35,207 nt of DNA from contig CANRPV010000002.1 in the NCBI GenBank assembly GCA_947632575.1, positions 1-35,207 on the forward strand. The letters are read 5' to 3'. Every line of letters begins with the position of its first letter. Positions within the stretch are counted from its first letter, which is position 1. The notes below the pieces were generated by a model, which did not search any database, was not told the origin of the DNA, and saw only the letters and a program-made list of their open reading frames with translations. The translations under genes were made by a program, and so were the position numbers. The stretch comes from an uncultured Eggerthellaceae bacterium (GTDB lineage Bacteria > Actinomycetota > Coriobacteriia > Coriobacteriales > Eggerthellaceae). This document shows, piece after piece, positions 2,938-25,759 of the stretch.

Positions 2938-4530
2938 ATGACGGACGGTTTTAAGGATAATTCACGTCGTTCCCGGCGCTCTACGCGCCGGGAACCCGTT
3001 AAAACAGCCTCTTCACCTGTGCACGGCTCTCCCGGGCATAGTTCTCCTGCTCATGGACCCTCCGGGCATGGATCTTCTGGCCACGGCTCTCCTGGTCATG
3101 GATCTTCTGGCCACGGCTCTCCCGGGCGCGGTCGCAGTTCTTCCTATCGCAGGCACGCGGAGCAGCTTAAGCGTCCAAATCCCATTGTGCGTTTGGTTAA
3201 CGCCTGGTTTGATCGGGTCATGGGCGCTCTCGGCGATGGCGGTCTTTCCGACCAGGATGCTCAATACGCCTCCCATCGCACGACCCGCGACTTCATTTGG
3301 AACACCGTCGGTGTCGGAGCTTGGGGCATCGTTTTTCCCATTCTCACCATGATCGCCACCCAGTTGGTGGGCGTGGAGCAAGCGGGTATGTTCTCGATGG
3401 CTTTTGTCACGGGCACCCTTCTGATGATTCTCGCCAATTTCGGGGTACGCACCTACCAGGTCTCGGATCTCGAGGAACATTTCTCTTTCAAAGATTACCA
3501 GGTAAATCGTTGGATAACCTGCGTGCTTATGGTGGTCATCGGGGCGATGTACTGCCAGATACGTGGCTATGAGACGGAGATGTTTTATATCAGCATCGGA
3601 GTGTTTCTCTACCGTATGGTCGATGGACTGGCCGATGTGTACGAAGGCCGACTTCAGCAGGTGGATAAGCTTTATCTCGCGGGCATCTCTCAAGCGGTTC
3701 GTTCCATCGCCGCCCTTGTCATATTCGCGATTTTCCTGCTCATCACTCGCAGTGTCATTGTGGCGAGCTTCGCGATGGCCATAGCGGCGGCACTCAGTTT
3801 CGTCGTCTTAACCTATCCGCTTACGCTTTTGGAGACTCCCAAGTCACCTCCGGTACGCTGGGCAAGCGTCTGGGAACTTTTCAAATCGACGGCTCCGCTG
3901 TTTTTCGCTCTCTTCCTCTATGCCCTTATCGACAACATGCCCAAGTTCATCATGGAAGGTGCGCTGTCCTACGACAATCAGCTCTACTTCAACGCGCTCT
4001 ATTTCCCCGCTCAGGGAATTTTGATCACAGCTCAGTTGATCTATAAGCCCCTCCTTGTGCGCCTCGCGGGCGTCTGGCAGGACCAGTCAAAACATCGTCA
4101 GTTTGACATCATCATGATCGGCATGCTGGCCATCATTCTTGGTATCACCCTTCTCAACGTCCTCCTGATGGCCTGGATCGGCATTCCTATCATGAGCTTC
4201 CTCTATGGCATCGATTTCGAGCAATTCCGGTCCATGCTCAACATCATGCTTGCGGCAGGCGGCGTCACGGCGGCAATCGATTTCCTCTATCAGGTGATCA
4301 CCATTATGCGCAGGCAGAAAGACGTCATGGCTCTATACTTCGTGACCTTCGGTTTTTCCCTGTTCGTACCTATCATGTTGGTAACGTTTGCGGGATTGTC
4401 CGGCGCGATTATGAGCTATCTGATAGTAATGACTTTGTTATTGGTGCTGCTCGTGTGGGAGTACTTCCGGATTCGGCATAGTCTTGCCGCGAAACGGGTC
4501 TCGCTGGAGGATATAGAGGAGGATCTATGA
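2938..4530 (+). CDS. Polysaccharide flippase / MATE-like multi-pass membrane protein
   Basis: A 530-residue protein. After a hydrophilic N-terminus of about 110 residues it has roughly 12-14 hydrophobic segments, with the layout of Wzx/MurJ-type lipid-linked oligosaccharide flippases (MOP superfamily). The substrate cannot be told from sequence. The N-terminal region, residues about 26-70, is a low-complexity His/Ser/Gly/Pro tract with repeats such as HGSSGHGSPG; it is encoded by a tandem DNA repeat described separately. The ATG at 2938 has only a distant Shine-Dalgarno. A later Met near 3220 would give a conventional flippase N-terminus, so the start is uncertain, but the long stop-free repeat tract favours translation from 2938. 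The stop overlaps the next start (ATGA), suggesting coupling to the DUF4013 gene. Confidence 0.78.
   Translation: MTDGFKDNSRRSRRSTRREPVKTASSPVHGSPGHSSPAHGPSGHGSSGHGSPGHGSSGHGSPGRGRSSSYRRHAEQLKRPNPIVRLVNAWFDRVMGALGDGGLSDQDAQYASHRTTRDFIWNTVGVGAWGIVFPILTMIATQLVGVEQAGMFSMAFVTGTLLMILANFGVRTYQVSDLEEHFSFKDYQVNRWITCVLMVVIGAMYCQIRGYETEMFYISIGVFLYRMVDGLADVYEGRLQQVDKLYLAGISQAVRSIAALVIFAIFLLITRSVIVASFAMAIAAALSFVVLTYPLTLLETPKSPPVRWASVWELFKSTAPLFFALFLYALIDNMPKFIMEGALSYDNQLYFNALYFPAQGILITAQLIYKPLLVRLAGVWQDQSKHRQFDIIMIGMLAIILGITLLNVLLMAWIGIPIMSFLYGIDFEQFRSMLNIMLAAGGVTAAIDFLYQVITIMRRQKDVMALYFVTFGFSLFVPIMLVTFAGLSGAIMSYLIVMTLLLVLLVWEYFRIRHSLAAKRVSLEDIEEDL
3019..3130 (+). repeat. In-frame tandem repeat encoding a His/Ser/Gly/Pro tract
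   Basis: Two nearly identical 30-bp units (3067-3096 and 3097-3126, both starting CATGGATCTTCTGGCCACGG) are flanked by more degenerate copies upstream. The period is 30 bp (10 residues), so the frame is preserved whatever the copy number. Confidence 0.85.
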
Positions 4531-7536: not shown

Positions 7537-8426
7537 GGTATTCCCGTGCTATAAGGCGAAGCTGCGAGCGTCTCCATCCGCTGGTGATACTGATATACGG
7601 GTGTTTGGCGCTCGCGGTCGTTTTGGCGGTTTCAAGCCCGCTTGTTTTGGGTCTGTGCCTTATTGGCGCCCTGATCGTGAGTACAGCGCTCAAGGGCTTT
7701 CGGGTTACCTTGAGTCGCTTGGGTGCCTTTCTCGCATTTGCCTTGGCCATCGCGCTGATTAATGGTCTTTTCTCGTCGAGCGGAGCGACCCTCCTTTGGC
7801 GTTTTGGGCTCTTCTCAGTATCTGTGGAGGGGATCGCCTATGGTTGCTTTGCGGGATTGGTCCTTGTCGCGGTGGCTCTTTGGGGGATGGCGCTCGGGGA
7901 TCTTTTAGATGGTAACCAGATATTTCTGCTCATGGGTTCGCGCTTTCCTCGCATAAGCCTCATGATCGCCCTATCCCTTCGCCTTTTGCCACTTATGGTG
8001 CGCAGGGGAAAACTGATCGGAGAATCGCTTGGCGCCTGCAGTGCCGCCAATCGATCTGCCCAAACGAAAGTTCAAGGACCGTTCCGACAAATCTCTACGC
8101 TTATGGCCTGGTCAATGGAAAACACTCTCATTGCGGGAGAGACGATGCGCGCTCGATCTTGGGGGCGCATCGAGCGAGGGGGACGCCGCACGAATTACCG
8201 TAGCCGCCGTCTCAGCTCTTTTGACTGGATGGCTTTAGGGATCCTGGGCCTGCTTACGGCTTGGTTCATCATTTCTCTTGCGAGCGGTGGCTCCCGGGCG
8301 CTCGCGTTTGGTTTTTATCCTCACATGAGCAGCCTTGAGTTTTCATGGAGTCTTGTTCCTCTCGCACTCTTTTATCTCTTACCTGGCCTTTTGTTCGGAT
8401 GGGAGCTTTGCCATTGTCCGCGCTAG
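7533..8426 (+). CDS. ecfT: ECF transporter transmembrane component EcfT
   Basis: A 297-residue membrane protein of the CbiQ/EcfT family. EcfT is the scaffold that couples the two ATPase domains to the substrate-binding S component. Hydrophobic helices occur at about residues 15-55, 65-110 and near the C-terminus. The cytoplasmic coupling helices carry the expected Arg-rich ends (RKLIGESLGAC..., ETMRARSWGR). The ATG at 7533 was chosen because it overlaps the preceding small ORF stop; an in-frame ATG at 7497 would add 12 residues. The next gene overlaps by 28 nt. Together with the double ATPase and S component it forms a dedicated (group I-like) ECF module. Confidence 0.88.
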   Translation: MRYSRAIRRSCERLHPLVILIYGCLALAVVLAVSSPLVLGLCLIGALIVSTALKGFRVTLSRLGAFLAFALAIALINGLFSSSGATLLWRFGLFSVSVEGIAYGCFAGLVLVAVALWGMALGDLLDGNQIFLLMGSRFPRISLMIALSLRLLPLMVRRGKLIGESLGACSAANRSAQTKVQGPFRQISTLMAWSMENTLIAGETMRARSWGRIERGGRRTNYRSRRLSSFDWMALGILGLLTAWFIISLASGGSRALAFGFYPHMSSLEFSWSLVPLALFYLLPGLLFGWELCHCPR

Positions 8427-9988
8427 CCTATGAACACTTTTGCTTTCGCTATCCGGAGTCACCTTCTTGGGTGCTCGATTCGGTGAGCTTTTCGGTACCG
8501 GAGGGTTCATTTTGCCTTTTGACTGGTGCGACAGGCTCCGGAAAGACGACGCTTTTGCGGTCTGCTTGTCCGCAGCTGGCTCCTCATGGCTCACGGGAGG
8601 GAAAGATCCGACTCTTTAACGATCAGGTGGGCTTAGAGGCGTCGATGGCCTTGGGGACTTCAGTGGGTTTAGAGTCATCGATGGCCTTGGGGACTTCAGT
8701 GGGCTTTGTGGGGCAGGAGATAGAAGGTCAGATTCTGTCAGATGATGTTCAAGCGGAAATGGCATTTGGGATGGAGAATGAGGGTCTTCCTCGGGAGATC
8801 ATGGTTCGTCGTATTGCCGAGCTCTCGCAGTTTTTCGCTATGGAGTCTTGGCTTCATGTCCCTACCGCTGAGCTATCAGGAGGGCAGAAGGCGCTTCTCA
8901 ACCTTGTTTCGGTTCTGGCCATGGCGCCTCGGCTCCTGCTTCTCGATGAGCCTACTGCGGAGCTAGATCCCGTCGCGCGTACCAATTTCGTTCATGGACT
9001 GTTTCGGGTGAAGAACGATTTTGGTATAACCATCGTCGTAGCCACACACGAGCCGGAGGTATTCGCCGACTACGCTGATCTTCTCTTTGAGCTGAGGGAC
9101 CATTCAGTCCAAAGTCGCTCGCTGGAAGAGTTGAGACGGCACGCCCATAAGCCACTTATCCTGGAGACGTTTGAACAAGAGTCACCAAACCGAAGCTTGT
9201 TTGACGAAGAAGTGCATGGCAAAAAGCGGCGCTCTGATGATGCTGTCCCATTGAGCTCGGCACTTTCGCTCAAAGACGTCTTTTTCGCTTATCCCGATGG
9301 GGAAGATGATGTGCTTAAAGGGCTTTCTCTTAACGTCGCTTGTGGGAAGATCCATGCCATTGTGGGAGGTAACGGAGGCGGGAAGACGACGCTTCTGCGG
9401 CTTATGGCTAAAATCGCCAAGCCCGGGCGTGGAAAGGTCGTCAATAACCTGACTGATAACCAGTGTTATCTTCCGCAAGATCCCGAGGCGCTCTTTGTCT
9501 GCGATTCGGTGGAAGAGGAGCTTTTCGAATGGAGCGTCAAACCGCTGTCGGACATTTTGAGGGCGGCATCCCGCGAAGAGTCTTCGTTTCTTGAACCGTG
9601 GCTTGATGGGAACCTGCGGAAACGGCACCCCTTTGACCTCAGCAAAGGCGAGCGGCAAAAACTTGCGCTTGCCAAGCTTCTTACCGCCTCTCCTCAGCTG
9701 CTCTTTATGGATGAGCCGACGAAAAGTCTTGATAGCGTCGGGAAGGCCTTGGTGGGCAGACTGATGCGATCTCTTGCCGATCGAGGCATGACAATCGTGA
9801 TGGCAAGTCATGATTTGTCGTTTGTGGCCTGCGTGGCCGATCGGATTAGCCTCCTTTTCGACGGACAAATCGCCGTGACGCAGGCGCCTGAGGAGTTTTG
9901 TCGTGAGGCTCTCTTCTACCGACCTTATGAAGACGGTTTTACCAAGATTTGGAGCGAAGCTCATGAAGATGGCTTCAAAAAGATCTGA
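8399..9988 (+). CDS. ecfA: Fused double ATPase of the ECF transporter (EcfA-A')
   Basis: A 529-residue protein with two ABC ATPase domains in one chain. Domain 1 has Walker A GATGSGKT (about residue 43), signature LSGGQKALLNL, Walker B LLLLDEPTAELDP and H-loop VVATHEPE. Domain 2 has Walker A GGNGGGKT (about 323), signature LSKGERQKLAL, Walker B LLFMDEPTKSLD and H-loop MASHDLS. Both sites look competent. The start at 8399 overlaps ecfT by 28 nt. A 36-bp tandem duplication sits just before the first Q-loop and a 36-bp tail duplication at the C-terminus; both are listed separately. The ATPase energises uptake through EcfT and the S component encoded downstream. Confidence 0.92.
   Translation: MGALPLSALAYEHFCFRYPESPSWVLDSVSFSVPEGSFCLLTGATGSGKTTLLRSACPQLAPHGSREGKIRLFNDQVGLEASMALGTSVGLESSMALGTSVGFVGQEIEGQILSDDVQAEMAFGMENEGLPREIMVRRIAELSQFFAMESWLHVPTAELSGGQKALLNLVSVLAMAPRLLLLDEPTAELDPVARTNFVHGLFRVKNDFGITIVVATHEPEVFADYADLLFELRDHSVQSRSLEELRRHAHKPLILETFEQESPNRSLFDEEVHGKKRRSDDAVPLSSALSLKDVFFAYPDGEDDVLKGLSLNVACGKIHAIVGGNGGGKTTLLRLMAKIAKPGRGKVVNNLTDNQCYLPQDPEALFVCDSVEEELFEWSVKPLSDILRAASREESSFLEPWLDGNLRKRHPFDLSKGERQKLALAKLLTASPQLLFMDEPTKSLDSVGKALVGRLMRSLADRGMTIVMASHDLSFVACVADRISLLFDGQIAVTQAPEEFCREALFYRPYEDGFTKIWSEAHEDGFKKI
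8627..8698 (+). repeat. 36-bp in-frame tandem duplication inside ecfA
   Basis: 8627-8662 and 8663-8698 match at about 33 of 36 positions and add the repeat VGLEASMALGTS / VGLESSMALGTS between Walker A and the Q-loop (VGFVGQEIEGQ) of ATPase domain 1. A third partial copy (GTGGGCTTTG) follows. Confidence 0.9.
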
Positions 9989-15139: not shown

Positions 15140-15403
15140 ACTGAGCGGCGAGCCTAGGTAAACTAACAAATCAAGATACCATAGCGAACCCAGATTTAGT
15201 GGGATCGCGCTGAGGTTTGCGCTCACGTCAAGCGTCTGATCCTAGACTCTTCTTCTGATGTTCTTTGATGAAATCACGGAATAATCCGGCAAGAATTTCG
15301 GTGTCTTTTGCAGTCTTTAAGTTGAGAGCAGACTGAACTAAGAAGCACGAATTTGCCTAGGTTCAAGTCCATTATTCGTCGTCAGACGAAGGACGGAGAG
15401 CCG
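15140..15403. other. Intergenic region before the Tad locus, with a possible coding relic
   Basis: About 260 bp. On the - strand, 15228-15356 is open for 42 codons and ends at a TGA. It reads protein-like (for example DTEILAGLFRDFIKEHQKKS) but has no start codon and is closed upstream by a stop. It may be the decayed 3' end of a lost gene. No terminator or promoter is clear. Confidence 0.35.
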
Positions 15404-16072
15404 ATGGGGCAAAAGAAATCAGTCATACTCGGGCTTCTGTGCGCGGTGCTTTGCGCGCTCTTTGTAACACTTTTTCTGGCTGATGTTGGGGCTCAGCAGG
15501 ACAGTCTCAGGGCTGAAGCGCTTGAGCGCTACGGCGGAGACCAGATTGAGGTTTATGTGGCAAAGCGTGATATAGCCGCCGGCGAAGCACTGAATCTTTC
15601 ATCCATTGAGCGACGTCTTTGGGTAGCGGATTTACTGCCTGCTCACCCAGTAACCACTCTTGAGGAAGTGGAAGGCCACACTATCCAATCGAGCATCCTT
15701 AAAGGTGAGGTGATTTCTGGTGATCGCTTGGGCTCTCCCGATTCCGTTCTTGACGTCCCATCGGGGATGAGCGCTGTCAGTGTTCCCGCTCGGGATGTGC
15801 AAGCTCTTGGTGGAGCTCTAAAAAGCGGTATGAAGGCCGATGTTTACGCTACAGGAGCTAGCGGAACAACACTTTTGGTTCAAGGAGCACAGGTGTTAGC
15901 TACGAGCAACGAAAAAGAAGAACTCTGGGGGACAGACAGTGTTTCTTGGATCACCCTCGCGGTTAAACCCGAACGAGTGCAAGAACTGGTGACCGCGGCC
16001 CATAATCTTGAGCTCTATTTTACTCTTCCGGTTGCCAAAGCAACTCCGACGGAAGCAGAGGTCAAATCATGA
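15404..16072 (+). CDS. cpaB: Tad pilus protein CpaB (SAF domain)
   Basis: A 222-residue protein. An N-terminal signal/anchor helix (about 7-28) is followed by a SAF-like domain (EVYVAKRDIAAGEAL, EGHTIQSSILKGEVI) and a CpaB C-terminal region (SAVSVPARDVQALGGALKSG). CpaB proteins assist Flp pilus assembly at the outer face of the membrane. The ATG at 15404 follows GGACGGAGAG and is preferred to an upstream TTG at 15353. It is the first gene of the Tad cluster and overlaps the next start by 4 nt (ATGA). Confidence 0.88.
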   Translation: MGQKKSVILGLLCAVLCALFVTLFLADVGAQQDSLRAEALERYGGDQIEVYVAKRDIAAGEALNLSSIERRLWVADLLPAHPVTTLEEVEGHTIQSSILKGEVISGDRLGSPDSVLDVPSGMSAVSVPARDVQALGGALKSGMKADVYATGASGTTLLVQGAQVLATSNEKEELWGTDSVSWITLAVKPERVQELVTAAHNLELYFTLPVAKATPTEAEVKS

Positions 16073-17340
16073 AAAAAGTGGTGCTTTGCGCGGATCAAGA
16101 ATGCCTCTCTAACCCTGCACTTCTTGGTCTTGAGGGCGAAAAGCTTGATAGTTATCCTTGGCTCGTACTTTTCTCGGATGGGGTCAAAGCTCGTTTCGAA
16201 CTTGCCAGATCAAATGAAGATATTGATGAGGTTTGGGTCGTTTCTAGCGATAATCTTGATGCTCTCAATCTTGCCGCCGGCATCAAAAAAGACAATCCAC
16301 AGCAAAAGATCTACCTTGTTACTGATAACACGTCCGGTTCTTTACTCAGTCGCGCTAAGTCGGCTGGTATCACGGCTGCGCTCTCTCAGGTGGCATTTGT
16401 TAAGCGCTTTGGGCTAGCGAAAAGTCGTACCGCTACATCGCCAGGTGAAAATTCATCTACAGACAGCAAGGCTAAAGCCCAGGCATTCGTTTTGGTAGTC
16501 GCTAGCGGTAGTGGTGGCGCAGGCAAATCAACGATAACTGCGATGAGCGCTCTTCTTGCTGTCAGTCGAGGTCTTAAGACTCTCGTAATTGATGCAGATC
16601 TACAGTTTGGTGATCTGGCAGGATTATTAGGACGGTCAAAACCCTTGACAGCAGAAGCGGCGATAGTCACCGATAAAGAGGGCGAAAATCCTGATCTTTT
16701 TTATGAGCAGCCAAGTCTGATCGTTCCAGGAACGAAACTTTTAGACCAAGAATTCTTCTCCCAAAGACTCTCAAGCCTGATAAAGAAATATCAATCACAG
16801 TTCGACCTGATCATAGTAAACACGGCTTCAGGTTGGAATGAGAGCCATGCGACTCTTATCGAGCTCTGTTCTAAAACTCTTCTTCTGATCGATCAGCGCG
16901 CCTCTTCAATTCATGCGACTGTCCGGGTATTAGAAATATGTGAGCAGTGCGGCATCCCATGCTCATCATTTCTTTTCGTACTTAATCACTGCAGTAAAGC
17001 GGCTCCTCTTAGCTCTATCGATGTCTCCTGCGCCCTTAAGGGCGCTCATGTCATAGAACTTCGCGAAGGAGGCTTTCAAGTTGAGGAGTGTATGGGATGC
17101 GGACGTGCGTCTGAGCTAATTAAAACCGCCCCGGACTTCTGTTTAAGCATTGGTTCAATGCTTGATGAGCTGCTTCCGCCGTCTTTGGCTGAGAATACTC
17201 AATTACCGAAAATGCATCGGTCTTTCCGAAGGTGGTTCCAAGGGTCTAAGACTGAAAAACCCTCGAAGGGCTCATCAAAACTTCTGACTCATGTTTTTGA
17301 AGACAAACAGCCCAGAACTGTCGGTGGTGATGCCCGATGA
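16069..17340 (+). CDS. cpaE: Tad pilus localisation ATPase CpaE/TadZ
   Basis: A 423-residue protein. An N-terminal receiver-like region (about 1-125) lacks an obvious phosphorylation motif. It is followed by a MinD/ParA-like ATPase with the deviant Walker A GSGGAGKST (about residue 147) and LVIDADLQFGDLAGLLG. TadZ/CpaE proteins position the pilus machine at the cell membrane. The C-terminal ~60 residues are basic and variable. Start and stop overlap the neighbouring genes by 4 nt (ATGA), implying tight translational coupling with cpaB and cpaF. Confidence 0.88.
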   Translation: MKKVVLCADQECLSNPALLGLEGEKLDSYPWLVLFSDGVKARFELARSNEDIDEVWVVSSDNLDALNLAAGIKKDNPQQKIYLVTDNTSGSLLSRAKSAGITAALSQVAFVKRFGLAKSRTATSPGENSSTDSKAKAQAFVLVVASGSGGAGKSTITAMSALLAVSRGLKTLVIDADLQFGDLAGLLGRSKPLTAEAAIVTDKEGENPDLFYEQPSLIVPGTKLLDQEFFSQRLSSLIKKYQSQFDLIIVNTASGWNESHATLIELCSKTLLLIDQRASSIHATVRVLEICEQCGIPCSSFLFVLNHCSKAAPLSSIDVSCALKGAHVIELREGGFQVEECMGCGRASELIKTAPDFCLSIGSMLDELLPPSLAENTQLPKMHRSFRRWFQGSKTEKPSKGSSKLLTHVFEDKQPRTVGGDAR

Positions 17341-18785
17341 GCCTGGCCCTGAGAGCTCAACAAGCCGAGTCGAAAGCAAGTTCGTTTGATGAGCCTCTTT
17401 CCCCGATGACGCTTAGCGATTTACGGCGTCTCGTTAAAAAACAGATTGCTTTTGAGGATTTAGCGGTTATCGCACGAGAAAATCCCTTACGTGCGCGTAA
17501 TGAGCTGCGTGCTGCCTGCCGCCAAGTACTGAGTTTCGTGGATAACCGTCAATTCCAATCAGGCGATAAAGAGCGCTTAACTGAGGCGTTAATCGACATC
17601 GTTTTTGGCTGGGGTCCCCTAGACACATTGCTGAAAGACGAAAGCATTACCGAAATCATGGTCAATGGGACCCAAAGTATTTTTTACGAGAGCCATGGTT
17701 GTCTTTACAAGAGTGACCTTTCCTTTGAGAGCGATGATCAGATTCGACTTTTGATAGATCGTATTATCGGGCCACTCGGCCGAAGGATCGACGAGTCATC
17801 ACCAATGGTCAATGCGCGCCTACCTGAAGGACATAGAGTTAACGCTATCATTCCTCCACTCGCCCTTGATGGTCCCATCCTGACTATTCGTCTCTTCCCT
17901 CATCAGAGATTAAGTCTCCAGGATCTTTATGAGAAGGGAACGTGCGATCGAGAGGTGGCTCAGTTTCTTTTCTGGGCAGTGAACACTCGGAAGAATCTCG
18001 CTGTTTCGGGAGCAACGGGTAGCGGGAAAACTACGCTGCTTAACGCGTTATCCGATGGTATTCCTAGAGACGAGCGTTTGATAACCATCGAAGATGCTGC
18101 AGAACTTCGCTTAAGGGATCATCCCCACGTGGTCCGTTTAGAGGCACGGCCTCCAAACGCCGAGGGCAAAGGCGAAGTAACCATTCGAGAGCTTGTCATC
18201 AATGCTCTCCGTATGAGACCCGATCGAATCATTGTGGGCGAGTGCCGTGGAGCTGAGGCGTTCGACATGCTTCAGGCTATGACCACCGGTCATGCGGGAT
18301 CTCTGACAACTCTTCACGCGGATGCTCCTGAAGAGGCAATCGGGCGTTTGGTGTCAATGGTGCGCTATGCCGTCGATTTGCCCCTTGATGCTATTGAGGC
18401 CCAAATTGCGAGTGCTTTCGACTACATCGTTCAAATAGAACGAAGTAAACAAGGTGATCGATTTATCTCAAGAATTGCTGAGCTGCGCTTTGATCAGGAA
18501 AAACGTCGATGTTTAACGGAGATGATCTATAGCAAAGGTCAAGACTGCGAAGCGGGCACATGGCATAAAGATCTTCCGTTTCCTCGTGAACTCCCGAAGG
18601 AACACGTTGAGAAGACAAAGGAGGTTCACCTTTGGACACAAACTTGCTCTGGTCAGGAGCCGCCATCGGATTCGGAGGAATGTCGGGTTATGCCTTTGGG
18701 AAAGCACTGTCACGGATATCAGCAGCCCCCAAGCTCTCGCAAAGTGTTCAAGAACGATTCCATCAAAGTCGTTTCGACTGGTTAA
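17337..18785 (+). CDS. cpaF: Tad pilus assembly ATPase CpaF/TadA
   Basis: A 482-residue type II/IV secretion ATPase that powers Flp pilus extension and retraction. It has Walker [10 protein letters not shown] (about residue 225), the Asp box [11 protein letters not shown], the [14 protein letters not shown] Walker B region and the [13 protein letters not shown] His box. Family-like sequence appears to end near residue 440. The last ~50 residues (from about 432) overlap the start of tadB by 154 nt in another frame and look unlike the family, as if the ancestral stop was lost. The start overlaps cpaE by 4 nt. Confidence 0.92.
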
Positions 18786-19606
18786 TTCGAAATGGCATCC
18801 GGTTTCTTAAAATTCCTGCTCGCTATCTTTTGCGGATTCGCTTTATCCGGAACAGTGTAAACGCTCTTTTGACCATTCTTCGCAATCACAAGGTATTCAG
18901 TTCAGAAGAATCTCTTTTATCTTTATCCCTCGGCCTGCTCTCGATCGTGGCTCTGACCACGTGGTTCTTTTCGTCGTCGCTGATCTGTGCTTTGAGTCTT
19001 TGTCTTCTTCTCGTTTCTGCTGTGGTGGTATCGATACAAAATCTTTCTGAGCGGGAGGGGCGTAAGGTGAAAGAATCTATGCCTGATGCTTTGCGCACTA
19101 TGACTATCTGTTTTCAGGCGGGTCTTTCACTTCAGCAAACAATGGCCATCATCGCGAAAGAAGTATCCGGTGTCATCGGGCGGCGGTTTAGTCAAGCGGC
19201 TATGGCTCTTGAAGCAGGGGCATCGATATCAGAGGGACTAGATTGTCTTAAAAGTACAGAGAGCAATGATGGGTTGTCATTTATTGCTGTTGCCCTGGAT
19301 ATTCAGCACTTAAGCGGAGGAAGTTTAGAAAAGGTATTAAAGGCATCCCAGGAGACGCTTGAGAGTGAAATAAGACTGGAGAGATCGCTTAAAGCGCAAA
19401 CTGCGCAAGCAAAATTCTCCGCTCAAATTGTGACATTGATGCCCTTTATCCTCATCGCCCTTTTTTCGTTACTCAGTCCTCATTTTATCGAGAGTTTTTT
19501 CTCAAGCACTGCGGGGATTCTGTTGCTTGTCTGCGCCTTGGGCCTTCAAGCTTGCGGAGTCTTTTGGATACGTCGCCTTCTCCAAGAGGGAGGCCAAAGA
19601 TTATGA
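18632..19606 (+). CDS. tadB: Tad pilus inner-membrane protein TadB (T2SSF)
   Basis: A 324-residue membrane protein with GspF/T2SSF features: a cytoplasmic block MPDALRTMTICFQAGLSL, FSQAAMALEAGASISEGL and LDIQHLSGGSLEKVL between hydrophobic segments. The TTG at 18632 was chosen because it follows an excellent Shine-Dalgarno (AAAGGAGG), although this places the first 51 codons inside the 3' end of cpaF. The overlapping N-terminal residues ([20 protein letters not shown]) form a plausible membrane segment. It acts with TadC as the platform for pilus assembly. Confidence 0.88.
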   Translation: MDTNLLWSGAAIGFGGMSGYAFGKALSRISAAPKLSQSVQERFHQSRFDWLIRNGIRFLKIPARYLLRIRFIRNSVNALLTILRNHKVFSSEESLLSLSLGLLSIVALTTWFFSSSLICALSLCLLLVSAVVVSIQNLSEREGRKVKESMPDALRTMTICFQAGLSLQQTMAIIAKEVSGVIGRRFSQAAMALEAGASISEGLDCLKSTESNDGLSFIAVALDIQHLSGGSLEKVLKASQETLESEIRLERSLKAQTAQAKFSAQIVTLMPFILIALFSLLSPHFIESFFSSTAGILLLVCALGLQACGVFWIRRLLQEGGQRL

Positions 19607-20571
19607 ATGGGCTTAATCTGTACGCCTATTTGGCGATAACGGCAAGCGGAGGCTTGGGCTATTTTGGGTACAAGCTTGTTTTCGGGGCACTGAACCTTAA
19701 ACGCTACAAACGTGCTGTACTCGCGCAAAATGGGTTTCAAAGTTCACGGTCATCGCAAGATTCAACTTCAAATAATAAATCCTGGGATATCCTTATATCT
19801 TTCCTGAGGCGGGAGACATTACGTTATAGGCAAGCCCACGTCCATCTCGCACTAACTCATGCCGATGACCGTTCTCGTCATTCTAAAGAGATGCCTCTTT
19901 GGCTGCAGACCGCTCTTCAGACAGCAGGTTTGAAGGATCTCATTAGCTATGAAGGTCTCAATCGCCTACGTTGTAAATTGAGCGTCCTCTTTGGCCTGGG
20001 CGGCTTTCTACTGGGCTTTTGCTTTTCTGGAGAGCTGGCATTTCTTTTAGGACTTGTTGCGGCTGTCTTGGGCTTTAGGATGCCCCGTCGAGTACTCAAA
20101 GAGCTAAGTCTTGGAAGAAAACGTGAATTAGAGACTCAACTCCCTGAAATGCTCGACATCGTCGCTCTTGGTCTATCGAGTGGTCTATCCTTTGATCGCA
20201 GCCTGCAGACCTATTGCGATCATTTCGGAAGTTCGTTATCTCAAGACATTCGGAGTTACCTGAACCAATGGGGACGAGGCCTCGTATCAAGAGATGAGGC
20301 TTTGAAGGAATTAGCCGCGAGCTATGATTCGCGCAGTCTGAGCCGCATCGTGGATAACATCATCCGTTCTCTTCAGTTTGGATCATCACTCGCCGAAAGT
20401 CTTTCATGCTCAGCACGCGACGCAAGAGAGGCTCGTCAGATGAGCCAACAGGAGATCATCGCCAAAATTCCCGTAAAGATTATGGTTCCTACGTGCACAT
20501 TGATTTTACCCGCCATGCTCTTACTTGTTCTTGGGCCAATCATGCTCGATCTCGGGGAAGGTTTTTCATGA
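19603..20571 (+). CDS. tadC: Tad pilus inner-membrane protein TadC (T2SSF)
   Basis: A 322-residue T2SSF-family membrane protein: LPEMLDIVALGLSSGLSFDR, SLAESLSCSARDAREAR and a final hydrophobic LPAMLLLVLGPIML segment. The ATG at 19603 overlaps the tadB stop (ATGA) and follows GGGAGG; the longer frame from 19552 lies within tadB and was rejected. It forms the cytoplasmic-membrane platform with TadB. Confidence 0.88.
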   Translation: MNGLNLYAYLAITASGGLGYFGYKLVFGALNLKRYKRAVLAQNGFQSSRSSQDSTSNNKSWDILISFLRRETLRYRQAHVHLALTHADDRSRHSKEMPLWLQTALQTAGLKDLISYEGLNRLRCKLSVLFGLGGFLLGFCFSGELAFLLGLVAAVLGFRMPRRVLKELSLGRKRELETQLPEMLDIVALGLSSGLSFDRSLQTYCDHFGSSLSQDIRSYLNQWGRGLVSRDEALKELAASYDSRSLSRIVDNIIRSLQFGSSLAESLSCSARDAREARQMSQQEIIAKIPVKIMVPTCTLILPAMLLLVLGPIMLDLGEGFS

Positions 20572-20586
20572 TGAAGGAGGTTGGAT

Positions 20587-20820
20587 ATGGGATTTCTCAA
20601 AGTGGCAAAAAGAATCGAAATGCAAGGTTGCGCGCAATGTGTGCAGAGAGCCGTCTCGAAAGCGTCCTTAAAACTTCGCAACAGCAAAGGCCAAGGTACC
20701 ACCGAATACGCCATTTTGGTCGGTGTGCTCGTCGTTATAGCCATCGTTGCCATAACCCTCTTCAAGCCCCGACTTCAAGAGCTCTGGAATGCCATAGCCA
20801 ATGGGATAAACGGTTTATAG
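20587..20820 (+). CDS. flp: Flp-type major pilin precursor
   Basis: A 77-residue prepilin. The cleavage site is probably after Gly35 in SKGQGTTEYAILV, which places Glu at +5 and Tyr at +6 of the mature chain as in Flp pilins. The following ~17 hydrophobic residues form the assembly helix. The mature pilin would be only ~42 residues. The leader is unusually long and holds two cysteines (CAQC). The ATG at 20587 is 6 nt after AAGGAGG; a TTG at 20581 is less likely. It is probably the structural subunit of the pilus built by the surrounding genes. Confidence 0.88.
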   Translation: MGFLKVAKRIEMQGCAQCVQRAVSKASLKLRNSKGQGTTEYAILVGVLVVIAIVAITLFKPRLQELWNAIANGINGL

Positions 20821-20831
20821 CGAGGGATGAT

Positions 20832-21011
20832 ATGGGGCAGGCAAGCGTCGAATACGGAATTGTGACATTTGCTTTTGTTGGAATGCTCCTTGCCCTCGGT
20901 CTCCTTTCTCAAAAGCTACAAGCAGGCCTTTTCATAGACCATGCGATTCAATCGGCAAGTCATGCGCTTGCCGCATCAACTACGTGGTTTTGCGATGTGT
21001 TTCTCTTTTGA
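20832..21011 (+). CDS. Second small pilin-like peptide
   Basis: A 59-residue peptide beginning MGQASVEYGIVTFAFVGML. The G|QxxxEY prepilin signature is present but the leader is just Met-Gly. A Shine-Dalgarno (GAGGG) lies 5-6 nt before the ATG. The frame is open upstream through the flp gene, so a longer leader from a non-standard start cannot be excluded. The hydrophobic stretch is followed by a C-terminal tail that overlaps the next gene by 17 nt. It may be a minor pilin or pseudopilin; a prepilin peptidase might not process so short a leader. Confidence 0.65.
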   Translation: MGQASVEYGIVTFAFVGMLLALGLLSQKLQAGLFIDHAIQSASHALAASTTWFCDVFLF

Positions 21012-21531
21012 TGATAGGGGGCAGTCAAGCATTGAGGCGGCTTTTATGCTTCCGATCTTGTTTCTGCTGCTTCTGTTGCTCATTCAGCCTGGGATCTGGC
21101 TTTACGACCGAATGGTTATGGGCGCTGCCGCAACGGAGGCCTGCCGCCTTTTATGCACATTGTCGGTTCAAGAAGTTGGGGAAGGCTACTGCGAGGACTA
21201 CATACGAAGGCGATTAGGATCCCTGCCTCCGCATGAATGCTTCCATCGTCATGAGCCTGAATGCAGTTGGAAGATCGAACTTAGCGGGAATGAAAGCTCC
21301 GAGGAAGTATCGGTACGCATCGGAAATGAGCTAATGCCGCTTCCCATCCTTGGTTTCGGCGCCAAAGTGCTCGGCATAACCAATGCGCAAGGGAATCTTG
21401 AGATAAGTGTGGAAGCGCGAGCTTTCACTCAACCAGATTGGGCTCGAACAGGATCGATGGGTGTTTCTCCAAGTCAATGGCCTGGTTTGTGGATATCGTC
21501 TCCGGAAGGTGCGGCTGAGGATCACCACTGA
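20995..21531 (+). CDS. TadE-like minor pilin/pseudopilin
   Basis: A 178-residue TadE-family protein. The short leader MCFSFDDRG is followed by QSSIEAAFMLPILFLLLLLL, with Glu at +5 and a single hydrophobic helix. The Cys-containing extracellular part follows (CRLLC, YCEDY, HECFHRHEPECSW), suggesting disulfides. The ATG at 20995 was selected because it gives a normal prepilin leader; an upstream in-frame ATG at 20941 lacks a Shine-Dalgarno. It overlaps the previous gene by 17 nt. Confidence 0.8.
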   Translation: MCFSFDDRGQSSIEAAFMLPILFLLLLLLIQPGIWLYDRMVMGAAATEACRLLCTLSVQEVGEGYCEDYIRRRLGSLPPHECFHRHEPECSWKIELSGNESSEEVSVRIGNELMPLPILGFGAKVLGITNAQGNLEISVEARAFTQPDWARTGSMGVSPSQWPGLWISSPEGAAEDHH

Positions 21532-21571
21532 TCGTGCTTATTACGAAATGATTGTGCGAAAGTGAGGGCAG

Positions 21572-23812
21572 TTGAGACGCTTCTTTGAAGGACAAGGTAG
21601 ACAGGCCTATAAAGCGAAAGAAACGCGGCTTCCCAAAAACGGTTTCTTCTTGCGCAGGACTCGTTCCGCTCTTCGCACGTTTGATGGATTATCGCTGTTT
21701 CGGAACGAAAAAGGCCTTACCACCCTTGCCATGGCTCTCGCCCTTTTGCTTTGCGTCCTGCTCGTGCTTTCCTCCCTCCGTATCTATGGCATACAGAGCC
21801 AGTCCGCTGCCATTCAGGATGTTGCCGATGCCGTTGCTTTGGCGGCGCAAACGGAAGTGGCTGAGTTCATGGTGCTTGTAAGACTCTGTGATGCTTTGAT
21901 ACTGAGTTTTTCTCTCCTCGGCGTTTTCGCCTGTGGCGTTTCCGTTGTGCTGTTTTGCGTTCCAGGATGCCAATTATTGGGTGAAAAAGTATTTGAGCAA
22001 GGAAAAGCCATTTTTGAGGCGCAAGACAAGTTTGCCGAAAGAGCCGTATCGGCCCTCAATCGCCTGGAGCGAGCATTGCCATTTCTTGCTGCTCTCAAAG
22101 GGGCGGAGGTAGCGCAGGCCAACGGAGGGGGAATGGCTGCCTCTAGTAAAGGTGGCGCTTACTATGGGCTTGCCGTACTTTTTCCCTTGTCAGGAGAGCA
22201 TATAACCCGTGGCGATTCATCTCATGCGGATTTTGGCAATGTGGTGGAAGGTCAGAAAGATGCCCTCGAGCAAAATGCCGCAAAAGCAGAGGAGGCGGCG
22301 AATAAAGCCCTCGAAGCGAAAAGGGAGGCCTATCACCACGACTGCGGTCTTGCTCCTGAGTATTGCATGTATGAGCGAGCTTCCACCCTTGCAGCGATGG
22401 ACGGAGAATTAAATCCCTATTTTGCAAGCGTGGATAGCTGGCATTTCTCTGTCGCATTGGATCGTGCCCAAAACTATTATCGAGCCCGTCTCATGCAGGA
22501 GTCACCGGAATCTATGTCATTGGAAGCTCAGAAGCAATCTGCTTTGAGAAGCATCTTTTATCGCTATGCATCGGGAAAGCTTTCGGAAGGGTATGTTCGG
22601 GAAAGCGAGGACCATTTTGAAGCTTATTTTCCGCTTTTACCTCGAAACACCTCCGAGATGAGTCAAACCGAACTCTACCGTCAGCGAGATTACCCTCTGT
22701 CTATCGCAGCTGGCGACATCCTCATCCATGCTTGGAAAGGATGTCCAGCCCTCAATGGGGTAGATGGTTATGGTTCGCTAGAAGAGCTAGATCAGGGAAG
22801 CTACCAAATTTGTGATAGCTGCAATTTCAGGAGTAGCGATTTGGGTAAGGTAGCAGCTGCCTCAAGCTCCATTGAAAATGGTTTCGAGTTTCACTATCGA
22901 CGAGTGGCTGAGGCGGCGGAGCGCTATGAGCTTGCCCAAGAAGAACTTCGCAGCAATGCTCAGCTTGTGAAAGACCAGGTTGGTGGCCTTCTCGACCAAA
23001 TTGGATCCTTGACCCGGAGTCTTTTTAGTAAACGTTTGCAGGCGAAACCCTCGGGCTGGGCAGGAGCCATAGGCATAGTCGTTAGATCTCATGCTGATTC
23101 TGGTTTTGCCGGTTTGGCTCAAAACCTCATCGCATCAAATTCTGAGCTTGGAACCCTTCTAGCTGTTTCGGGAGCCACCCTTTTAGAGGATCAAGGCGAG
23201 GAGGGAACAACAATCATCGATGAGCTGCTGGCTGGGTTTCAGCCGAAAACCGTCCTTGGTGATGCTGGTCAAACCTTGTTAAAGCTCTGGTCTTTCCTTC
23301 TTAAAGGTTATAGTTCTGGGCAGGCGGGCATAGTGCAAGGGTTGCAAAACCTGCTTGATGGCATTCCTTTGCTAAGTACTGCTGGCTTGGGGCAGTGGGC
23401 AGCAAAACAGTGGGTTGCAACTATGGAGGGGCTTGGACTTGAGCCTGCAAAACTTCAGTCTCTCAAACCGGTTTTGATTAACACTGCCCGTGTAGCAGCT
23501 CGCGGGGGAGAGCTGGGTGACTCTTATCTCTCATTAAAGTCCAGAGCGTTGTCGTTGTCTGGTGCGTCTTCTGACCTTTCTCTCACGCTTTTAGAGAAGG
23601 CAGAGCAAAAAGCGATGGATGGGGTACATCAACTGGGCGAACGCATTGAGGTTGCCCGTCTAGAGCTTCCTTTTGCGGACATTGAGATTCCCCTTTACAT
23701 CACGCTCCCGCAGTTTTTGACCGATGCGAGCTCTGATGCCGTGCACAGTCTGTTTTCAAGAGTTAAGGACTGGCGCCAAGAGCTGAGTGGCTCAGTTACG
23801 CCATGGCGTTAG
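21572..23812 (+). CDS. Large TadG-like pilus-associated protein
   Basis: A 746-residue protein. An N-terminal prepilin-like segment (NEKGLTTLAMALALLLCVLLV, about 45-65) is followed by a VADAVALAAQTE motif typical of TadG/TadE-type proteins, and a second hydrophobic region (about 105-130). The rest is extracellular, with long helical/coiled stretches, four clustered cysteines around residues 250 and 410-415, and no vWA domain that I can recognise. The position after the GL bond lacks the usual Glu5, so processing by a prepilin peptidase is doubtful. The TTG at 21572 follows GTGAGGG. It is likely a surface or tip component. Confidence 0.7.
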   Translation: MRRFFEGQGRQAYKAKETRLPKNGFFLRRTRSALRTFDGLSLFRNEKGLTTLAMALALLLCVLLVLSSLRIYGIQSQSAAIQDVADAVALAAQTEVAEFMVLVRLCDALILSFSLLGVFACGVSVVLFCVPGCQLLGEKVFEQGKAIFEAQDKFAERAVSALNRLERALPFLAALKGAEVAQANGGGMAASSKGGAYYGLAVLFPLSGEHITRGDSSHADFGNVVEGQKDALEQNAAKAEEAANKALEAKREAYHHDCGLAPEYCMYERASTLAAMDGELNPYFASVDSWHFSVALDRAQNYYRARLMQESPESMSLEAQKQSALRSIFYRYASGKLSEGYVRESEDHFEAYFPLLPRNTSEMSQTELYRQRDYPLSIAAGDILIHAWKGCPALNGVDGYGSLEELDQGSYQICDSCNFRSSDLGKVAAASSSIENGFEFHYRRVAEAAERYELAQEELRSNAQLVKDQVGGLLDQIGSLTRSLFSKRLQAKPSGWAGAIGIVVRSHADSGFAGLAQNLIASNSELGTLLAVSGATLLEDQGEEGTTIIDELLAGFQPKTVLGDAGQTLLKLWSFLLKGYSSGQAGIVQGLQNLLDGIPLLSTAGLGQWAAKQWVATMEGLGLEPAKLQSLKPVLINTARVAARGGELGDSYLSLKSRALSLSGASSDLSLTLLEKAEQKAMDGVHQLGERIEVARLELPFADIEIPLYITLPQFLTDASSDAVHSLFSRVKDWRQELSGSVTPWR

Positions 23813-23821
23813 GAGGCTCTC

Positions 23822-24286
23822 ATGGGATTACAGCGCATGGTGAGTAGACTCTTGAAACAACGAAGCGGTCAGATGACTGTTGAGCTCGCAGTGGTTTTTC
23901 CTGTGGCAATTCTTCTGGCTTTAATCGCCTTGAACGCTCAGTGCTATTTGTCAGAGGCCGCATCTTTTGATCGCTTGGCCCGACAATGTATTCGAGTTTA
24001 TGGAGCAAGTCCCGATTGCGGACTAAGCGATGCGGCTATAGCGGGACAAATGGAAGCCTATCTCCAGCAATGCTTTTCGAAAGAGAACCTCTCTTGTCAT
24101 GTGGAAGTGGCGAAATCCACAGCAACACTTCGAAACTTTAAGGCCACGTTGGTCTATCGACCTGAGCTATTCGGCTTGTCGATGTCGCGTGAGGTGTTTG
24201 GAGTAGCACTTCCAGAGGTGAGCCACACCACCGAATTGACGTTGGATACCTATCGACCCGGCGCATGGTTTCGCCAGCTCGTTTGA
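23822..24286 (+). CDS. Second TadE-like pseudopilin
   Basis: A 154-residue protein. The leader MGLQRMVSRLLKQRSG precedes QMTVELAVVFPVAILLALIA, which matches the TadE prepilin signature with Glu at +5. Four cysteines in the extracellular part (RQCIRVYG, PDCGL, QQCF, LSCHVE) suggest disulfides. The ATG lies 6 nt after TAGGAGG, 9 nt after the previous stop. It is part of the pilus cluster. Confidence 0.82.
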   Translation: MGLQRMVSRLLKQRSGQMTVELAVVFPVAILLALIALNAQCYLSEAASFDRLARQCIRVYGASPDCGLSDAAIAGQMEAYLQQCFSKENLSCHVEVAKSTATLRNFKATLVYRPELFGLSMSREVFGVALPEVSHTTELTLDTYRPGAWFRQLV

Positions 24287-24300
24287 TTAAGGGCGTAAGT

Positions 24301-24891
24301 ATGGATTTAAAGTCTTTTGCAGGTCCGGTCATGCCCGTGTTTCTCATGACGATAGTCGTGGTGATGGCTTTGGCTTGCAACTCTCAGGACCTTGATGGAG
24401 AGCCTTTTCAGATGAATGTAGGTGCCAAAGAGCCTCTGTGGACGACAACGGATGAGTTCTTAGATCTTGTGGAAGCGAGACTCGACGCTTACGAGAGGCA
24501 AAAGATTGAAGAGCTTCCTCTTTGGTTTAAGGAGGAATTGATCGATCCTGCACCTTTGGGGCCTTGTGATATAGCGCTTTGGGAGGGAGAAAGTGTTGTA
24601 AAGAAACAAGACGACAGAAAAGAAAATGGCACTTCAGAGGGGGATGGTGCAGCGATTGCATATTTCACTTCGAATATAAATGCTCGCCAATTGATCCGGG
24701 AGATAGTGAATCAGATGGAAAGGAAAGGGTGGTCAGGGCTTTGCCAAGAAGATCTCTTGATGGCCACTATGACTAAGAAGGAAGGGAACTGCCAATGGGC
24801 ACTAATTTCATGCACCAGCCTCGACGATACAAGCAGCGTGATGTTCCAAATTCAACGAGCTCCCAGAGGCATATCGAACGAAGAGGAGTAG
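24301..24891 (+). CDS. Putative lipoprotein of the Tad cluster, function unknown
   Basis: A 196-residue protein. The N-terminal hydrophobic segment MPVFLMTIVVVMALAC ends in a plausible lipobox (ALAC), followed by a soluble acidic domain. No family is recognised. The ATG at 24301 follows AAGGG; an earlier in-frame start at 24265 lies within the preceding gene. Its 3' 97 nt overlap the DUF192 gene. Its position suggests a role at the envelope side of the pilus machine. Confidence 0.65.
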   Translation: MDLKSFAGPVMPVFLMTIVVVMALACNSQDLDGEPFQMNVGAKEPLWTTTDEFLDLVEARLDAYERQKIEELPLWFKEELIDPAPLGPCDIALWEGESVVKKQDDRKENGTSEGDGAAIAYFTSNINARQLIREIVNQMERKGWSGLCQEDLLMATMTKKEGNCQWALISCTSLDDTSSVMFQIQRAPRGISNEEE

Positions 24892-25187
24892 TTCGCTTAG
24901 CCGTGACTCCGTTACAGAAATGGAGAGGACTTCTCTTTCAGAAACCCCATAGTGATCTGCTGATCTTAAATCGTTGCAACGACGTTCATACCTTTGGCAT
25001 GCGACACGCTTTGGATATTGCTTTTCTCGATGCATTTGGACAAGTGGTTGAGGTACATAGACGGGTGGCGCCGTCTCGTCGTTTACGCTGCCCAAAAGCA
25101 TTTTTTACTGTTGAGAGGTTTCATAAACCCGGACCGTGGTTTTTTAGGGGCGACAAGGTAATCACTCTGTCGCCTCTTTCTAGATAA
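24795..25187 (+). CDS. DUF192 family protein
   Basis: A 130-residue protein. The DUF192 core is clear: VVRLAVTPLQKWRGLLF, CNDVHTFGMRHALDIAFLD and a terminal GDKVITLSPL. Function is unknown for the family; members often occur near Tad genes in actinobacteria. The ATG at 24795 lies ~9 nt after GGAAGGG, inside the preceding gene (97-nt overlap). A GTG at 24903 would cut into the domain, so the long overlap is probably real. The first ~30 residues are basic and have no signal peptide. Confidence 0.75.
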   Translation: MGTNFMHQPRRYKQRDVPNSTSSQRHIERRGVVRLAVTPLQKWRGLLFQKPHSDLLILNRCNDVHTFGMRHALDIAFLDAFGQVVEVHRRVAPSRRLRCPKAFFTVERFHKPGPWFFRGDKVITLSPLSR

Positions 25188-25234: not shown

Positions 25235-25759
25235 ATGAAAACATGCCCCGTATGCTCAGCTCAGCTATTTGATGACATCGACACTTGCTTTGGTTGCATG
25301 TATTCGTTTACCCACGGTGGCGCGCATGGTAGACAGGAGCTGACAGAAAAGCTTCCAACGGTGCAGGCTCAAAGCTTGCATACCCAAGGGTTACATGGCC
25401 AAGAGTTACAGACTCAAAGCTTACATACCCAAGGGTTACATGGCCAAGAGTTACAGACTCAAAGCTTGCATACCCAAGGGTTGCATACCCAAGGGCTACA
25501 GGCTCAAAGGGCACAGACTCAAGGGTCACCAGCGCGGGATCAGGGAAACGATGTTACGGCGCCTTTGGTAGCAAAGGCGCCTTTGGCCACATCAGTCCCA
25601 ATGGCCTCTCTGTCTTCTTTGTCGCCCTTGCCCTATCAGAGTTCTGCGCCGAGAGTCGTGCAATCAAATGCTGAGGAATGTTGGTCACTGCGCCTTGTTC
25701 TGCAAACGGGTCAGCAGCCAAAGCGCGTTTGGGAGATCGACCTCAGCAGGCAGTCGTAG
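25235..25759 (+). CDS. Zinc-ribbon protein with 15-residue Gln/His repeats
   Basis: A 174-residue protein. The N-terminal CPVC...CFGC pair forms a zinc ribbon (residues 4-22). Residues about 45-100 are tandem Gln/His/Leu-rich repeats (QSLHTQGLHGQELQT), followed by a linker and a conserved-looking C-terminus (SLRLVLQTGQQ). Small zinc-ribbon proteins with this head and tail are associated with actinobacterial Tad loci; the role is not known. The repeat tract is a DNA tandem array described next. The gene converges on thrC. Confidence 0.75.
   Translation: MKTCPVCSAQLFDDIDTCFGCMYSFTHGGAHGRQELTEKLPTVQAQSLHTQGLHGQELQTQSLHTQGLHGQELQTQSLHTQGLHTQGLQAQRAQTQGSPARDQGNDVTAPLVAKAPLATSVPMASLSSLSPLPYQSSAPRVVQSNAEECWSLRLVLQTGQQPKRVWEIDLSRQS
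25370..25530 (+). repeat. 45-bp in-frame tandem array in the zinc-ribbon gene
   Basis: Units 25370-25414 and 25415-25459 differ at one position (CAAAGCTTGCATACCC versus CAAAGCTTACATACCC). A third diverged unit is 25460-25504 and a partial one follows. Within units a 15-bp sub-repeat (for example CATACCCAAGGGTT) recurs. The period keeps frame (15 residues). Confidence 0.95.

Follow-up and report, generated by a model that had tools for sequence, protein, structure and literature searches.

The stretch of DNA analysed here (the window) comprises 35,207 nucleotides from an uncultured Eggerthellaceae bacterium and carries, on its forward strand, a Tad/Flp pilus cluster that ends with a small zinc-ribbon gene. 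The pilus genes (positions 15353–24286, + strand) were assigned with Pfam and encode RcpC/CpaB, a CpaE/TadZ-like ATPase, CpaF, two T2SSF proteins (TadB/TadC-like) and TadE, along with a 746-aa protein and a TadE/F-like protein, in an order that is kept in relatives. These matches bear out the pilus-cluster setting proposed in a preliminary description of this DNA. Downstream of them lies a DUF192 gene (24795–25187, + strand; Pfam DUF192, 31.4 bits against a cut-off of 27), which directly precedes the ribbon gene in nearly all relatives. The ribbon gene itself (25235–25759 including the stop codon, + strand; 174 aa) starts 47 nt past the DUF192 stop and is encoded within or beside the Tad core genes in conserved order. 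Between the TadE/F-like gene and DUF192 there is also a fast-evolving gene for a 208-aa protein (24265–24891), which has a sequence match in 25 of 100 family loci.

Three parts can be distinguished in the zinc-ribbon protein. The N-terminal zinc ribbon (residues 1–27, MKTCPVCSAQLFDDIDTCFGCMYSFTH; 25235–25315, + strand) follows the pattern CPxC...F.D...CxxC, which aligns without gaps in all 97 family proteins, with CP.C, F, D and C..C invariant or nearly so. In a structural model this part folds with a pLDDT of ~96, and the two CxxC knuckles, the four invariant cysteines and the confidently predicted small beta fold all agree with the earlier call of a short zinc-ribbon product. It is followed by a low-complexity linker (25316–25681, + strand), which is disordered in the model and, by comparison of length and composition, unconserved across species. 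The third part is a predicted C-terminal beta-hairpin (WSLRLVLQTGQQPKRVWEIDLS, residues 150–171; 25682–25747, + strand), identified from tail scores against shuffles and from the model, where its strands (residues 152–156 and 166–170) appear at modest confidence from a shallow alignment. The sequence shows no obvious signal or membrane segment.

Searches of Pfam and NCBIfam placed the protein in no family above threshold, the GLTT match being sub-threshold (17 bits against a Pfam cut-off of 21), and solved structures gave chance CxxC matches only. A pentapeptide-repeat protein (A(D/N)LXX beta-helix, PF00805) was also considered and rejected, there being no PF00805 match. The short CPxC...CxxC ribbon is shared with the Pfam families Zn_ribbon_3 (PF13248), DZR_2 (PF18912) and UPF0547 (PF10571), all of which match weakly; unlike these families, the Tad-linked protein has a signature of its own, FDD[MA]xxCYGC[LM][HY]RF.

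Within the linker lies a tandem array (25364–25528, + strand) of eleven 15-bp (five-codon) units, in part grouped into a 45-bp higher-order unit, as defined by TRF, codon register and chance tests. TRF reports a 45-bp period with 3.2 copies and 91% matches at 25364–25509, and a 15-bp period with 8.1 copies at 25379–25500. The array is in frame within the 174-aa ORF, with three five-codon units making up one 45-bp unit, and its codons read QAQSL, HTQGL, HGQEL; QTQSL, HTQGL, HGQEL; QTQSL, HTQGL, HTQGL; and finally QAQRA, QTQGS. Its identity at a lag of 45 is 0.91, whereas 2000 codon shuffles gave at most 0.46, and a 21-base core occurs four times in the window against none expected. The array is therefore real and far above chance level, as the preliminary description of near-identical repeats had implied. 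That description also stated that two units differ at one base, which is true of the first and second 45-mers if the start is set at 25368–25379 but not in codon register, where they differ at two; the third unit has at least six differences, their number being set by the register.

No copy of the array was found in any of the compared loci of relatives, so that it is private to the source genome, and a scan of viral contigs for the repeat core gave no match. The near identity of the units and their absence from relatives uphold the claim of a recent expansion, within a comparison in which the genus of the source bacterium is represented by one genome and a contig scan gave only two Adlercreutzia/Enterorhabdus-type relatives. 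With 189 contigs and 86% completeness, the source genome appears to be a draft or MAG, and since the array is about one short read long its exact copy number may depend on the assembly. An outright artefact of short-read assembly, in the array or in its copy number, as this fragmentation and array length might be taken to indicate, is very unlikely in view of the several differences between units and the preserved reading frame.

The linker that hosts the array varies widely in both length and composition. Among the 97 family orthologues strong conservation is seen in the N-terminal ribbon only, and the protein ranges from 63 to 375 aa, its middle part being nearly absent in some and exceeding 300 residues in others. 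Linkers can differ by 20–40 residues even between relatives whose CpaF proteins are 90–98% identical and whose ribbons are at least 92% identical, and these shifts speak against the proposed length-setting linker. Gln and His make up 19% of the window protein, whereas the linkers of relatives contain 3.3% Gln and 1.3% His and are rich in Ala, Pro, Gly and Glu, which gives no support to the idea of a conserved Gln/His metal-binding spacer. In other species (L041, L065 and L085) the same linker carries unrelated repeats of its own. Compared with the remainder of the cluster, the ribbon gene of relatives is enriched in arrays: it makes up 4.1% of the bases but holds 10 of the 90 arrays (P 0.004). 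The effect is modest, ranging from P 0.004 to 0.04 with the threshold, and nine of these ten arrays have a period divisible by 3. Because length and composition vary, unrelated repeats occur in other species and arrays are over-represented, the Gln/His character comes out of this comparison as a side effect of the repeat unit. The data support a linker that behaves as a repeat-prone, weakly constrained tether. Slipped-strand or unequal-crossover duplications would lengthen such a linker in multiples of 15 bp, and they would be tolerated because the reading frame is kept and the length of a weakly constrained tether matters little.

A functional spacer, selected in the source lineage for Gln/His metal binding or for its length, would account for the six His residues of the array, the Gln/Leu/His-rich linker and the near-perfect five-residue periodicity. 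We nevertheless regard this as improbable, given that composition and length are unconserved in all relatives, that the repeat is not common to them, and that the sampled source genome is generally repeat-rich, with 50.6 arrays per Mb compared with 8.6 per Mb in the Tad loci of relatives (a rough comparison, as the source-genome sample includes non-coding DNA). The array itself is an ordinary repeat, one case of recent duplication in a tolerant linker, and it carries little weight except as an example of that tolerance.

Tandem repeats were also noted outside the ribbon gene. The source-genome sample (L182–L201 and the window) held 20 arrays in 396 kb, a density that looks high, and nine of the 20 have periods not divisible by 3 and so may be intergenic. 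Within the window, a 30-bp tandem repeat at 3022–3127 encodes the His/Gly/Ser/Pro-rich N-terminus of a polysaccharide-flippase-like protein (2938–4530), and a 36-bp in-frame duplication at 8627–8706, with two copies of a VGLEASMALGTS-type unit, sits in a gene for a double ABC ATPase (8345–9988), inside the first of its ATP-binding halves.

The ribbon gene is far more widespread than its repeat. A whole-genome search with the protein gave matches in 133 of the 140 genomes of the family, nearly always limited to the first ~27 residues, and a ribbon profile likewise found 133; CpaF and DUF192 are each present in 133 of the 140. Four of the seven genomes that lack the ribbon (G043 and G091–G093, from two genera) also lack CpaF and DUF192, as would be expected for parts of one system. 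The gene is kept in 46 of 48 genera, and in the 100 family loci examined DUF192 follows the Tad genes and is itself followed by the ribbon gene, with almost no exceptions. Genus g32 (L113–L115; G078–G080) keeps Tad and DUF192 without the ribbon gene, which is therefore dispensable in that genus at least; in the same loci a convergent threonine-synthase gene directly follows DUF192. Genus g7, for its part, has Tad and the ribbon gene with no detectable DUF192. Short zinc ribbons are common across many processes and this one resembles the generic Pfam ribbons weakly, so a protein that works elsewhere, for example in transcription or translation, and merely shares the operon could be imagined. 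Such a role seems improbable for a single-copy gene that lies beside the Tad genes in almost every locus and has been lost together with Tad in four genomes of two genera.

The ribbon profile also matches proteins in other families of the order and in another order of the class. These orthologues occupy the same place behind DUF192 in the Tad cluster and consist of the ribbon, a linker and a full FHA domain, a phosphothreonine-binding module. Of ten orthologues tested from other families, nine scored above the curated cut-off for Pfam FHA (PF00498), and with a local FHA profile the domain was also found in families f3, f9, f11 and f13. Forms that lack the domain or carry it in decayed state occur in f14, in part of f13 and part of f9, in one f7 genome and in two f2 genomes. 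The window protein has no Pfam FHA match and scores -1.1 bits with the local profile, within the range of shuffles, and no FHA domain was detected in any Eggerthellaceae family member examined. A search for a domain relocated to another Tad gene found no FHA ORF in 100 family Tad loci. The source genome has three FHA matches, none of them at the Tad ribbon gene; in G198 and G226 there is one further FHA match, located at the Tad ribbon gene.

To place these states on a phylogeny we used a CpaF tree of 62 rows built with a quick search. The family of the window (f1) forms one clade with a support of 100, FHA-bearing proteins are found in the outgroup order as well as in f2, f8 and f9, and at least five changes of FHA state are required. 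Given this presence in the outgroup and in three further groups of the family's own order, the tree favours an ancestral FHA domain that was lost in the window's family as the simplest reading, with a polarity that depends on a single gene tree, a short search and the chosen root. We infer a single loss at the root of the family, with independent losses in other lineages. Among the f9 proteins, decay is graded (L140–L142, L146, L154 and L165–L167), with truncated domains and with the usual Arg of the GR motif replaced (GS); these GS forms suggest that phosphopeptide binding may have been lost before the domain itself. In L136 (G153) the FHA domain is out of frame with the ribbon ORF because of a frameshift that is either real or assembly-derived.

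Where other families have the FHA domain, the window protein ends in the putative hairpin. Its last ~25 residues are similar to the tails found in g9, g19 and g23; nine family tails similar to that of the window score 8.2–11.5 bits, compared with 7.1 for the best of 4800 shuffled tails. Perfect strand-like alternation occurs in 43 of 97 family tails against a shuffled mean of 11. In g3 and g30 (L037, L048, L049, L059 and L068) an end resembling an amphipathic helix, for example LLGDFLVQLHRFLGDFLVDAGVKL, replaces the hairpin. The hairpin could conceivably represent the first strands of the old FHA domain, a possibility without statistical support, or it may be unrelated; it cannot be claimed as an FHA remnant, since the FHA profile gave no signal above shuffles on family tails. 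The family-wide absence of FHA, its independent losses elsewhere, the missing ribbon gene of g32 and the variable linker might also describe a protein that has been drifting towards a pseudogene since FHA loss, with the repeat as a symptom. We consider such decay unlikely, because all 97 proteins, from dozens of genera, keep an intact and almost unchanged ribbon and the C-terminal strand pattern is retained well above its shuffled mean.

Taken together, the gene is probably the version, found in Eggerthellaceae, of a Tad-pilus accessory gene that ancestrally coded for a ribbon, a linker and an FHA domain, with the linker serving as a weakly constrained tether. Judged from sequence, its product is most likely a cytoplasmic Tad accessory adaptor that has lost its phospho-reading half. 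The role, which the preliminary description left as unknown, is narrowed to that of a Tad-linked accessory gene with FHA-bearing orthologues outside the family; its function and partner are what we infer. In such a scheme the ribbon would dock on one of the cytoplasmic Tad components, either CpaF or the CpaE-like ATPase or the DUF192 protein, and the C-terminal part would contact another partner. In FHA-bearing relatives, the FHA domain would recruit a phosphothreonine partner, making the contact phosphothreonine-dependent, and in the window's family the beta-hairpin would stand in its place.

In the papers searched we found no description of the Tad-linked ribbon protein, nothing relevant on Tad with zinc ribbons or on DUF192 with pili, and nothing specific on Tad/Flp pili of Eggerthella or Eggerthellaceae. 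The Tad pili of gut Coriobacteriia have been little studied, and a small gene that is kept in 46 genera and lost together with its cluster makes a good candidate for an accessory part that has so far been missing. The host gene is of more interest than the repeat, as a class-wide Tad-linked ribbon protein from which one family has lost the FHA domain. Relatives with and without the domain offer a direct way to ask whether Ser/Thr phosphorylation controls the pili of Coriobacteriia.

Two known systems serve as precedents and invite comparison. The Tad-like Kil system of Myxococcus has FHA proteins of unknown role in its cluster, and an FHA protein in a Tad-like cluster is the feature that it shares with Coriobacteriia; the two differ in phylum and function, and the portion of the report consulted mentions no matching zinc ribbon for Kil (PMC8460266). 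Class III CpaF proteins of other phyla combine an N-terminal FHA domain, a disordered linker and the ATPase in one chain (PMC12019362), and thus likewise tie an FHA domain and a disordered tether to the Tad system. In Coriobacteriia, by contrast, it is a ribbon protein apart from CpaF that carries the FHA domain, and the proteins of the window's family lack that domain. The FHA domain on the ribbon protein might then be the in-trans counterpart of the one fused to CpaF. As a tentative extension, the ribbon-tether-FHA adaptor could be a class-wide Tad component of Coriobacteriia that links phosphothreonine signals in trans to the base of the pilus, and that Eggerthellaceae would have rewired by losing the FHA domain altogether and keeping the ribbon and the hairpin.
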